Positions 36,359-39,981 of a stretch of 64,000 nucleotides of DNA are shown piece after piece. Below the pieces are notes generated by a model that was not told where the DNA came from, made no database searches, and saw only the letters and a list, made by a program, of their open reading frames with translations. Position 1 is the first letter of the stretch; each line of letters starts with the position of its first letter. The position numbers and the translations under genes were made by a program. The stretch covers positions 124,001 through 188,000 of the forward strand of contig NZ_JACIJD010000004.1 of assembly GCF_014199205.1 (NCBI RefSeq), given 5' to 3'. This DNA is from Muricoccus pecuniae. Lineage in GTDB: Bacteria; Pseudomonadota; Alphaproteobacteria; Acetobacterales; Acetobacteraceae.

Positions 36359-36820
36359 ATGCGGAAAGCCACCCTCTGCGGCGCGCTCGCCTTCTCCTTC
36401 GCCGCCGGGCTGATCGCGGCCCGCGCCGTGCCGGAAGCGGGAGCCCAGACCGGACCGGCCCCGCTGGCGCCGCGCATCGTCAACCTCATCTCCATGACGG
36501 ATGAGGAGATCGGGCCGCTGGTCAACAACACCGACCTGCGCTCGCGCAACCTCGTGGCCACGCCGCAGGGCACGATCAACATCCAGAGCGGCAACGTCTT
36601 CAAGCACTTCCACCGGGACGCGGACGAGATCCAGCTCATCCTCGACGGCACCGGCGCCTTCTGGCTGGACGACAAGGAGGTGCAGGTGAAGCCCGGGGAC
36701 CTCATCATCATCCCGCGCGGCACCCACCACGCCGGCTCCCGCGCCGCCACGGGGCGCTTCCGGGCGGTCGCGATCAAGCTGCCACCGCAGCGGGCGGACG
36801 ACACGCATCCCGTGCCCTGA
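36359..36820 (+). CDS. Exported cupin-domain protein
   Basis: The 153-residue protein has a signal peptide (LCGALAFSFAAGLIAARAV, cleavage near AGA-Q at about residue 29). A single cupin follows: motif 1 HFHRDADEIQLILDGTGAFWL at about residues 82-102 gives two His and one Glu ligand; motif 2 is PGDLIIIPRGTHHAG at about 114-128. Such domains bind a divalent metal and may be dioxygenases, isomerases or sensors; the secreted single-domain type has no settled function. The next gene, a GFA-family fragment, begins 3 bases after its stop. Confidence 0.85.
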   Translation: MRKATLCGALAFSFAAGLIAARAVPEAGAQTGPAPLAPRIVNLISMTDEEIGPLVNNTDLRSRNLVATPQGTINIQSGNVFKHFHRDADEIQLILDGTGAFWLDDKEVQVKPGDLIIIPRGTHHAGSRAATGRFRAVAIKLPPQRADDTHPVP

Positions 36821-37141
36821 CCCATGGAGAAGCCGGGCGAGGAGCCGCTCAAGGGCTCCTGCCACTGCGGTGCCGTGTGCTTCGAGGTGGTGCTGGCGGA
36901 TGGCCTGCGCAGCGCGCGCCGCTGCACCTGCTCCATCTGCCGGATGCGCGGCGCGGTCGCGGTCTCGGCGGCCCTGGACGGGGTGAGCATCCTGGCCGGG
37001 GCCGACAAGCTCGCCACCTATGGGTTCAACACGCGTGCGGCGAAGCACCACTTCTGCTCCGTCTGCGGCATCTACACGCACCACCAGCGCCGCTCGGACC
37101 CCCGCCAGCTCGGCGTGAACCTCGCCTGCCTGGAAGGAAGC

Positions 37142-37167
37142 ATACCAACCGCCCTGGCGACTGACCG
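37142..37167 (+). repeat. Left terminal inverted repeat of the insertion
   Basis: Twenty-six bases beginning ATACCAACCGCCCTGG; compared with the right end it differs at three positions. It directly follows GGAAGC of the GFA reading frame. Confidence 0.8.
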
Positions 37168-37323
37168 GGTCCGACCCGAAACGGACCTGGACTATGCGCC
37201 CGCACCTTGTTGGATGCTGATAAGCTACCCCTTTACAGCGATATGGTCTGGTCGCGTCTAGTTTTCACTTGGGGCAGTCGCGCACCACAGGATTGGGGGC
37301 AGCAAAATACGACGTTCGGGAGT

Positions 37324-37782
37324 TCATGGGACGGGAGGAACCGCGTGAGTTGAGCAACGCCAGCGTCCCTGGGCGCTGATGCGCTCGGGGCCGCCGAGAT
37401 CAGGCTCAAGCCCCTCGGCCCAGAACGTTCCCGAGCGGCCATTCGATGTCGTATCAACGCGGAGGCCATTATCCGGCGCGAAGGGTGTGCGCCAATGGCG
37501 GCCATCGACCCAGACGTGCAACGAAACTCTACTTCCTTCAGCTAGGGTCATTTGTTGCGGCGAACGCGGAGGGACGCGCAACATCAGACCCCAACCAGAC
37601 TTGTCCTTCGCAAACCTGACAGACCCCGGCTCACAGAAATGCATCCAATCGACTGAATGCGAGAGGAGGATTGCCCTTCCTGCCGTCGCTCCTGATACCT
37701 GAACCTCAATGGCAACATCTGCATCAGGCAGCGGAGTGCAGGCCACCCCCATTAGGGCACCGATGATAGCAATTACTCGCAA
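37324..37782 (-). CDS. Putative lipoprotein carried by the insertion
   Basis: The 152-residue protein starts at TTG 37782 with MRVIAIIGALMGVACTPLP: a short hydrophobic leader and a lipobox-like GVAC, predicting a lipid-anchored Cys15. The mature part (EVQVSGATAGRAILLSHSVDWMHF, GWGLMLRVPPRSPQQMTL, SLHVWVDGRHW) looks like a beta-rich periplasmic domain; I do not recognise its family. It occupies half of the insertion and its lower GC and codon use set it apart from neighbouring genes, which points to transfer. The ribosome binding site is weak (GGAAA near the start), so expression is uncertain. No transposase-like motifs are seen. Confidence 0.55.
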   Translation of the reverse strand: MRVIAIIGALMGVACTPLPDADVAIEVQVSGATAGRAILLSHSVDWMHFCEPGSVRFAKDKSGWGLMLRVPPRSPQQMTLAEGSRVSLHVWVDGRHWRTPFAPDNGLRVDTTSNGRSGTFWAEGLEPDLGGPERISAQGRWRCSTHAVPPVP

Positions 37783-38015
37783 CCGGTTTTCCAGTGCAGA
37801 GGTTTTTACCCTCCCGCGTAAGCGGCGAGGTAGCGGCTTTAGTGCAATAGGCTGGTCCTCCTTAGATGGAGCGTACCGCTGGTCGTCGTCTCAGCCTACT
37901 GCGGCACCGCCTCGTCTTAGCCAGTGGTGCGAAAATAGATTGGCTCTGTGTTCGCTCGCAGGCGGTGGAGCGGACGCTTGGGTATGAGGCATCTACATCC
38001 GCTTCCCACCCTGAG

Positions 38016-38041
38016 CGGTCATTCACCAGGGCGATTGGTAT
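38016..38041 (-). repeat. Right terminal inverted repeat of the insertion
   Basis: Read on the minus strand it begins ATACCAATCGCCCTGG and matches the left end at 23 of 26 positions. The GFA frame resumes at 38042. Confidence 0.8.
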
Positions 38042-38168
38042 CAGACCCTTCGACCTGCGGGAGGTCCCGGTGAATAACGGGGTGAACCACCCTTCCGCTT
38101 CCGGCGTGTCCCGCCTGGCAGGCGTGCTGCGCTTCTTCCCGGCGGAGGAGGGGGGCTGAGGGGCCGCC

Positions 38169-39503
38169 TCACCGCCCCGGCCACACCCCCGGCCGCACCC
38201 CGGCCGCCGTGAACACGCCGTAAGCCGTGATGCCGAGCGCCACCGCCAGGAAGTGCCCGTCCAGCCCCATGCCGGCGAGGTCGCCGAGCAGCCAGCCGCC
38301 GCCCACAGCGAGGGCGATGCGCGACACCCCGGCCGCGACCGGCCAGCCCATCCGCCCCGCGCCCTGGGAAGCGAAGTAGAGCGCCATGCCCAGGCCGAAG
38401 CCGCCGAAGGCCGGGCCGGTGAAGGAGAGCGCCCGCGCCGCCATCGCCACCACCGCCGGGTCCGAGGTGAAGAAGCCCGCGAAGCTCCGGGGCGCCAGCG
38501 CCACGGCGAGGCCGATCGCCCCCGTCACGCCCAGCGCCATCAGCCCGCCCGTCCAGGCGATCCGCCGCGCGCCCTCCCAGTCCCCCGCCCCGACCGCGCG
38601 GCCGACGAGCGCCGTCAGCGCCGAGCCCACCCCGAAGGCGATGGGGATCATGAGGAACTCCAGCCGTGCCGAGATGCCATAGGCCGCCACCGCCGCCGCC
38701 CCCTCCGCCGCGATCCGGGCGGTGACGAGGATGGTGGTCAGGTTCGCCACCCCCGCCAGGGCCGAGGCCACCAGCCCGACGGAGAGGATGCGCCAGAACA
38801 TCGCGCGGGAGGGCCGGACCCGCAGCACCGGCCGGAACCCCATCCCGCCCCGCATCACCACCCAGCCCATGGCAAGGGTAGAGGCGATGAAGACGAGGGC
38901 CTGGGCCAGGCCGATGCCCGGCAGCCCCATCCCCGCCGGCTCCGCCAGCGCCCAGGCGAGGGGCGGATAGGCGGCCCAGGTCAGCAGCAGCACCCGCGCC
39001 GCCAGCGCGTGCCGCCCGGCCCCGCGCAGGACCGAGGCGAGCGTGTTGGCCAGCCAGACCGGCACGGCCCCGAGGCCGAAGAGAGCCACGGCATAGGGCG
39101 CGGCGGCCGCCGCCGCCTCGGCCCCGCCGATCATCCCGAAGACCGCGTGCGGGAAGCCCGCGAGCAGGATGGCAAAGCCCGCCCCGGCCAGCAGCGCGAT
39201 CAGCACGGCGTGCAGCACGAGGGCCGAGGCCTCCTCCCGCCGCCCCGCCCCCAGCGCGCGGGCGATGGCGGAGACGATGCCGCCCCCCATCGCCCCGGAC
39301 GACATCTGCTGCATCAGCAGGGAGAAGGGCAGCACCAGCGACCACCCCGCCAGCGCCGCCGTTCCCTGCCGCGCCGCGAGCCAGGTCTCGGCCACCTGCC
39401 CGCCCGCCTGGAGAACGGCGCTGAGCGCGGTGGGCGCGGCCAGGGCGAGGATCATCCGGGCCGCGGAGGGCCGGGGCGGCGCGACGGCCAGGGTCTCAGC
39501 CAT
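38169..39503 (-). CDS. MATE-family multidrug exporter
   Basis: From ATG 39503 the protein has 444 residues with twelve hydrophobic segments. MILALAAPTALSAVLQAGGQVAETWLAARQGTAALAG corresponds to MATE TM1 and TM2, and the second half repeats it (FWRILSVGLVASALAGVANLTTILVTARI). MATE pumps export cationic or aromatic compounds with Na+ or H+. The start lies 8 bases inside the preceding HxlR gene, so the two are one translationally coupled unit under the HxlR operators. It runs toward the interrupted GFA gene, with 9 bases between stops. Confidence 0.92.
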   Translation of the reverse strand: MAETLAVAPPRPSAARMILALAAPTALSAVLQAGGQVAETWLAARQGTAALAGWSLVLPFSLLMQQMSSGAMGGGIVSAIARALGAGRREEASALVLHAVLIALLAGAGFAILLAGFPHAVFGMIGGAEAAAAAAPYAVALFGLGAVPVWLANTLASVLRGAGRHALAARVLLLTWAAYPPLAWALAEPAGMGLPGIGLAQALVFIASTLAMGWVVMRGGMGFRPVLRVRPSRAMFWRILSVGLVASALAGVANLTTILVTARIAAEGAAAVAAYGISARLEFLMIPIAFGVGSALTALVGRAVGAGDWEGARRIAWTGGLMALGVTGAIGLAVALAPRSFAGFFTSDPAVVAMAARALSFTGPAFGGFGLGMALYFASQGAGRMGWPVAAGVSRIALAVGGGWLLGDLAGMGLDGHFLAVALGITAYGVFTAAGVRPGVWPGR

Positions 39504-39981
39504 CGGCGCGCTCCACCAGGGCGAGCCGGCGGCGCATGGCCTCCCCCGCCCCGGGACCGGGCAGCAGCCGTACCGCCTCGGGGGTGAGCGGGGCGCCGTC
39601 CGCACCGAGCGGCGGGGGGATGGCGACCTCCTCCCCCGTCGCCCGGTCCACCAGCCGCACCACCGGGCCGTCCGGGGCCATCCAGCGGTCGCTCCAGCGC
39701 TTGAGGGCGAGGAAGGCGGGGAAGAAGTCGCGCCCCTTCTCCGTTAGCCGGTAGGCGTGGCGCGCCCCCTCCGGCACGCGCTCCAGCAGACCGTGCTCCA
39801 CCAGCTTGGCGAGGCGCGCGCTCAGGATGTTGGTGGCGATGCCGAGGTGGCGCGCGAAGTCGTCGAAGCGGGTGGTGCCGTAGAAGGCCTCCCGCATCAC
39901 CAGGATGGCCCATCGCTCCCCGAGCACCTCCATGGAGCGGGCGATCGGGCATCCCATGAGGGAGAAGTCGGTGCGGGGCAT
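39496..39981 (-). CDS. HxlR-family transcriptional regulator
   Basis: From ATG 39981, behind GGAGGG, the protein has 161 residues. MGCPIARSMEVLGERWAILVMREAFYGTTRFDDFARHLGI is the HxlR winged-helix start with the conserved redox-capable Cys (MGC). TNILSARLAKLVEHGLLERV is the recognition region. A C-terminal 55-residue extension lacks a known fold. It precedes and overlaps a MATE exporter gene, so it probably controls it, perhaps in response to an electrophile or quinone sensed by the Cys; that stimulus is inferred. The promoter region holds two perfect palindromes at 39997-40036, and an alternative ATG at 40011 lies inside the first one and is unlikely. Confidence 0.92.
   Translation of the reverse strand: MPRTDFSLMGCPIARSMEVLGERWAILVMREAFYGTTRFDDFARHLGIATNILSARLAKLVEHGLLERVPEGARHAYRLTEKGRDFFPAFLALKRWSDRWMAPDGPVVRLVDRATGEEVAIPPPLGADGAPLTPEAVRLLPGPGAGEAMRRRLALVERADG

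Follow-up and report, generated by a model that had tools for sequence, protein, structure and literature searches.

A transposase-less, probable mobile insertion cassette with IS630-like ends interrupts a GFA-family gene in Muricoccus pecuniae

Overview

An 898-bp element without a recognised transposase interrupts a GFA-family gene in the genome of Muricoccus pecuniae, and it is best explained as a mobile insertion cassette that would depend on an IS630-type transposase acting in trans, a reading to which we assign a probability of roughly 0.8. The window, meaning the whole stretch of 64,000 nucleotides that was analysed (G000:C4:124001-188000), belongs to a 92-contig draft. The non-autonomous, transposase-less nature of the insertion is well supported by uninterrupted relatives, by sister elements and by matching ends.

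The interrupted gene and the limits of the element

The cassette spans positions 37143 to 38040 (898 bp, GC 0.595, no strand assigned) and lies between the two copies of a 3-bp target duplication, of which the left (37140 to 37142, GCA) is one base off the right (38041 to 38043, TCA). Its left end, of the B type, covers about 49 bp on the plus strand (37143 to 37191) with the core TACCAACCGCCCTGGCGACTGACC, while the right end, of the A type, covers about 49 bp on the minus strand (37992 to 38040) and reads TACCAATCGCCCTGGTGAATGACCGCTCAGGGTGGGAAGCGG... from the right. The GFA gene is broken after approximately 105 codons. Its 5′ part (36824 to 37139, plus strand; Pfam PF04828) continues in frame into the element as far as a stop at 37261, and its 3′ part (38044 to 38159, plus strand) was delimited by collapsing the duplication and by the alignment of relatives. 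A cupin-domain gene (36359-36820) is the upstream neighbour, and a MatE gene (38169-39605) lies beyond the GFA gene on the opposite strand. The cysteines that we take to be the zinc ligands of GFA proteins sit upstream of the break, and therefore the truncated protein might keep part of its fold.

Collapse of the 3-bp duplication yields a GFA protein of 144 residues, and the intact gene is assigned 144 codons because the duplication at the limits 37143-38040 measures 3 bp. The 5′ part of the gene was matched in 23 other genomes of the 60 searched, and the nine with long matches were examined; these belong to other species, are about 70-80% identical and carry the gene uninterrupted. All nine have two residues between a conserved G and PFD, as the 3-bp collapse predicts, and these nine loci also align, right through the junction, with the joined flanks of our element. 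In the three nearest relatives the codon is ATG, which appears closer to the TCA copy.

These comparisons bear on a preliminary description of the locus, which had set the element at 37142..38041 (900 bp), taken AT as the duplicated target and joined the flanks into a GFA protein of 145 residues. Comparison with the flanks of the sister cassettes' ends corrects the limits to 37143-38040 and the duplication to a 3-bp, TNA-type GCA/TCA, which leaves the earlier seam off by one base. The 145-residue reading is indeed open, but the AT join leaves three residues between G and PFD, one codon too many, and nine of nine relatives fit 144. Its other observations stand. That an insertion splits the GFA gene is borne out by the uninterrupted relatives, the sister elements and the matching ends; the search for an empty site that it proposed found one in each of the nine relatives examined, all of other species; the arms 37142-37167 and 38016-38041 do match in inverted orientation at 23 of 26 positions; and the interior is lower in GC than its flanks (0.595 vs 0.745). 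No transposase had been visible to it, and Pfam likewise detects no transposase domain in four interior open reading frames (ORFs) and two ORFs that cross the element's ends. Since the scanned ORFs hold no IS630-type (HTH + DDE_3) transposase, the element is not itself an IS630 insertion sequence.

The interior of the element is confined to its own genome among the 100 genomes searched; elsewhere only the right end was matched, in G009, G001 and G005, and no second copy of the cassette was found in its own genome or in the 100-genome search. The whole element has no match in the plasmid collection and none in Rfam. Its RNA fold has a z-score of -1.33, and the promoter and terminator scans returned one and two sites, respectively, where shuffled sequences averaged 0.4 and 0.8.

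Recurrence of the ends and the sister cassettes

The arm pair was rejected as proof of an element when taken alone: inverted matches of at least 22 of 26 positions, separated by 300-3000 bp, start at 20 positions in the window (this element contributes three), and shuffling in 400-base blocks, repeated three times, yielded 0, 2 and 7, which places the pair within chance for a GC-rich window. The element is established because similar ends with target duplications recur at unrelated loci and because relatives are uninterrupted. The further copies of the ends that the earlier description had suggested looking for do exist: in a scan of 397 family genomes, the end pattern (24 bases, at most two mismatches) occurs 30 times, spread over 18 genomes that include our own, while the pattern read backwards never occurs. 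At least one of these places is an IS630-type end (G010:C89), and some lie in very short elements. A stricter, exact scan of contigs for the ends retained eight, six from Roseomonas and two from Belnapia.

Sorted by eye, the ends fall into a class A, close to TACCAACCGCCYTGGTGRATGACCGCTCAGGGTGGGAAGCGG, and a class B, close to TACCAACCGCCYTGGTGAATGACCGGTCCCGACCC, and every paired cassette combines one A with one B end, the left end of L068 being a poor fit to A. A convincing partner was found for nine of 21 cassette-type ends and none for the other 12, the weak partners at L159, L160 and L163 being left unused. The bonus given to matching duplications did not create the nine pairs, since all nine were already paired by pattern alone. 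Similar ends also bound two MITE-like elements, at L161:769-938 in G436 (170 bp, flanks TAA/TAA) and at L164:1744-1847 in G338 (104 bp, flanks TAA/TGA).

Seven end-paired cassettes were recognised at different sites, namely our own and those of G005, G009 (two), G001, G008 and G323. The six sisters, located in related genomes, span 632-3185 bp and have TACCAA-type ends, some of which deviate by one or two bases (for example CACCAA in L155), each with an inverted partner. The 3-bp flanks are identical in five of the seven cassettes, and those of our own and of G323 each differ at one base; the outer three bases read TNA on both sides throughout, except in our own left copy. No transposase was found in the scanned ORFs of the six sisters, four of which carry recognisable genes. 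In G009, L072 (2549 bp) holds an aldo/keto reductase with a LysR regulator, and L071 (2450 bp) a GDSL lipase with a 143-residue protein lacking a Pfam match; L074 in G001 (3185 bp) encodes an 824-residue TIR + AAA protein; and L155 (915-1546) in G323 (632 bp) carries a GFA gene. The remaining two, L076 (1067 bp) and L068 (700 bp), contain small ORFs without matches.

In the case of L074, the first 150 residues of the TIR/AAA protein match a ThsB-type model of PADLOC (E 1e-52), and the cargo is possibly a mobile defence gene. The protein is encoded at L074:2172-4646 (G001:C19) and is TIR + AAA/STAND-like, and the cassette adjoins the end of a gene whose match to TniQ is weak and falls below the cut-off. 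In the case of L155, the cargo belongs to the same protein family, GFA, that our own cassette interrupts.

Origin of the cargo and the interior reading frame

Among the three cargoes tested, a pattern of capture of chromosomal DNA is seen once, in L072, and suggested once, in L071. Positions 132-2424 of L072 are 97% identical, ungapped, to G010:C205:6623-8915 among 60 genomes searched. This interior is a 2.3-kb gene pair, similar pairs of which occur in our own genome (86%) and in G012 (87%), and none of the three contigs that hold such pairs (of G010, our own genome and G012) showed the end pattern. The remaining fetched stretches of L072 and G010 do not match, save for a 97-bp repeat at another place, and thus two ends did not simply land beside a resident gene pair. 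Sequence comparison therefore suggests that L072 took its interior from ordinary chromosomal DNA, the route presumably being capture and its direction presumably into the cassette. In L071, a 400-bp piece 87% identical in G005 lies beside pieces that match elsewhere (40 genomes), forming a partial mosaic, and the cargo of L076 has no match in 40 genomes. Beside the B end of L072, approximately 100 bp (~2411-2515) recur at 73-89% identity elsewhere in G003, G006, G010 and G013.

The largest ORF of our own cassette, a putative passenger, lies on the minus strand at 37324 to 37782 (152 codons, TTG start). Its GC content by codon position is flat (0.65/0.56/0.59) compared with that of the GFA gene part (0.65/0.53/0.94). 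It has no Pfam match above the cut-off, no NCBIfam match and no match among plasmids and phages, and a search of 150 family genomes yielded no convincing relative; a hit to DUF1583_N (E 0.039) fell below the cut-off, and the best family match (27% identical, with internal stops, E 1.2e-4) was likewise set aside. The single-sequence fold is predicted with low confidence (mean pLDDT 38). By a rough estimate, a frame of 152 codons in 898 bp at 59% GC is too common to prove a gene. By eye, a lipoprotein-like start is possible. The passenger gene proposed earlier is thus a clear feature of sister elements, but our own ORF, with no convincing homologue among the sequences searched, flat codon GC and a low-confidence fold, is a putative passenger only.

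The same properties of this ORF, namely its flat codon-position GC, its lack of Pfam or NCBIfam matches and of a convincing relative in 150 genomes, would also fit an insertion sequence that was formerly autonomous and has since decayed, losing its transposase and retaining only filler, with no passenger function. We consider this unlikely: Pfam finds no transposase remnant in the scanned ORFs, the subterminal sequence is unlike that of the IS630-type copies, and the six similar-ended sisters carry other ORFs, including recognisable genes in four.

IS630-type elements, target duplication and candidate helper

The genus harbours IS630-type elements, roughly 1163 bp long, whose ends are close to TACCAACYGCCTTGGCCACTGACT and TACCAACCGCCTCAGACTTTGACC, and the cassettes have TACCAACCGCCYTGG....TGAC ends and TNA duplications in common with this group, the incomplete copies in our own genome included. 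Their assignment to IS630 is based on NCBIfam NF033545 and on Pfam DDE_3 in orfB of L070; for NF033545, orfA of our own genome, at 100.4 bits, just passes the cut-off of 100, while orfA and orfB of L070 score 99.8 and 70 bits, both halves falling below it. The left end of our cassette agrees with the left end of the IS630-type copy in its own genome at 21 of 24 positions, and the right end matches that same IS end less well, at 18 of 24. Outside the first 24 bases the cassette ends differ from IS630-type ends; therefore the true helper may be another relative, possibly a closer, unseen one. In our own genome this group is present as incomplete copies only (C40, C57 and C16), with no complete helper visible, and G005, which has a cassette, shows no IS630 match at E <= 1e-30. 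Across 15 genus genomes, IS630 is present in four of five with a cassette vs two of ten without (Fisher p 0.047, a nominal value with the IS threshold chosen afterwards). The family left unnamed in the preliminary description is thereby tied to IS630-type ends, and for the full-length, transposase-bearing copy that it advised looking for, the genus offers IS630-type elements with similar ends as candidates, and our own genome incomplete copies only.

The mobilisation envisaged involves several steps. An IS630-type transposase would bind and cut within the first 24 bases of the ~49-bp ends, and the TACCAACCGCC group of IS630-type copies would provide it in trans. The cassette, taken from elsewhere, would have been joined to a TNA target (TCA) in the GFA gene, an insertion that would have duplicated 3 bp and truncated the gene. 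The cassette family would keep both ends while swapping the interior, and in at least one sister ordinary chromosomal DNA would have been the source of the interior. We infer both the mobilisation in trans and the cut-and-paste mode of movement.

An excerpt of PMC8533490 describes TA as the target duplicated by the whole IS630-Tc1-mariner group, with a single reported exception, Sailor, which uses TATA. Neither the cassettes nor the IS630-type copies that share their ends show this TA duplication, having a 3-bp TNA instead, which is supported by the nine uninterrupted relatives and by the matching middle base. TNA duplications and similar ends were found in six of six full-length IS630-type copies from G001, G009 and G010; a seventh, from G002, agrees with TNA but pairs at only 1008 bp, and three of four fetched Paracoccus plasmid copies, out of nine places found, agree as well. 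A scan of 30 IS630-type loci, in which pairs were ranked by inverted-repeat match and not by duplication, led to the acceptance of four new TACC-starting pairs. In all, 24 of 29 accepted pairs (cassette, short and IS630-type) have identical 3-bp flanks, and the middle base agrees in 25 of 29 (p ~5e-10, assuming a 30% chance match and treating pairs as independent). L206 (GCA/TTA) is counted there as a miss, and no plausible pairing emerged for L208. Because they did not fit, a further two IS-like pairs were omitted, namely L096 (TACC ends, flanks GAA/TTC) and L108 (other ends, flanks TGA/TAA); when they are counted, the flanks are identical in 24 of 31.

More distant IS630-type elements of the Acetobacteraceae (L098, L099, L100 and L101) also start with TACC and have identical 3-bp TNA flanks, and therefore TNA duplication may be widespread within this IS630 branch. 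A literature search for IS630 with a TNA or 3-bp target, with ISfinder outside its scope, returned nothing on the subject by title. If TNA holds for this branch, it would be a departure from the stated TA rule and a point of comparison for target choice.

TNA duplications are a feature of the IS5/IS1031 group, and a helper of that type would account for the 3-bp TNA copies; moreover, the sister L071 directly abuts the end of an IS5-like transposase gene. Such a helper is nevertheless very improbable, as the genus IS630-type copies have similar terminal sequences and the same kind of duplication, and the IS5-like gene is not part of the L071 element. The gene occupies L071:8190-8840, and its stop codon coincides with the cassette's target duplication; further copies of that IS, should they exist, would offer empty sites for comparison. 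Least credible, to the point of being negligible, is an artefact of assembly, or an inverted match arising by chance in a gene that is frame-shifted and naturally longer, since, despite an arm pair that is insignificant alone in a GC-rich window and the draft state of the 92-contig genome, the ends recur with matching duplications at other loci, the backwards pattern is absent from 397 genomes and nine of nine examined relatives are uninterrupted.

Comparison with known systems

By the definition given in excerpts of PMC3913671 and PMC3129680, the element is, in its structure, a mobile insertion cassette: it has terminal inverted repeats related to an insertion sequence (left 21/24 and right 18/24 to one IS630-type end), no transposase gene (by Pfam, and by NCBIfam for the largest ORF) and a target-site duplication (GCA/TCA, with one mismatch). 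Inverted repeats, the lack of a transposase gene and a target duplication are likewise found in MIC231 of Bacillus cereus, associated with IS231A, and in mic-qnrD and mic-qnrS2, and MIC231A1 was reported to be mobilisable in trans by the IS231A transposase in the consulted portion of PMC3913671. Unlike these, our cassette has IS630-type ends, a 3-bp TNA duplication and several sisters with unrelated cargo in one genus. Its TNA duplication, together with the apparently captured cargo in the family, marks it as a novel form of mobile insertion cassette.

With the IS630 family (IS630-Tc1-mariner group), the cassettes share a resemblance to the ends of elements carrying NF033545 / DDE_3 transposase halves; they differ from it in that no transposase was found in our own element and in the 3-bp TNA, as opposed to the TA given in the excerpt of PMC8533490. 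MITEs, TIMEs and TIME-COMPs are described, in the available part of PMC13367494, as non-autonomous, bounded by inverted repeats and mobilised by related transposases. The cassettes are similarly non-autonomous and bounded by inverted repeats, but at 898 bp for our own and 632-3185 bp for the sisters they exceed the 50-500 bp which that part of the source gives for MITEs, and our element is a single unit with one A and one B end and not DNA between two whole MITEs.

The literature searches returned no paper combining Roseomonas with IS630 insertion sequences or with miniature inverted repeats. Transposase-less cassettes are easily overlooked because no interior feature names them. The signature of TACCAACCGCCYTGG....TGACC ends in TNA duplications exposes moving gene cargo in the Acetobacteraceae, including a TIR/AAA defence-like gene, and near-identical cargo DNA without the ends in a sister species makes gene pick-up by cassettes directly testable.

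Plant Pack-TYPE and Pack-MULE elements consist of non-autonomous ends around captured host genes. The present cassettes differ from them in being bacterial and in their transposase family, and capture is clear in L072 and appears as a partial mosaic in L071. Tentatively, the cassettes might be a bacterial counterpart of Pack-TYPE elements, with a pair of IS630-compatible ends as their sole common trait, which repeatedly capture genes of the chromosome, at times as mosaics, and are moved in trans by a branch of IS630 that has shifted from TA to 3-bp TNA targets.
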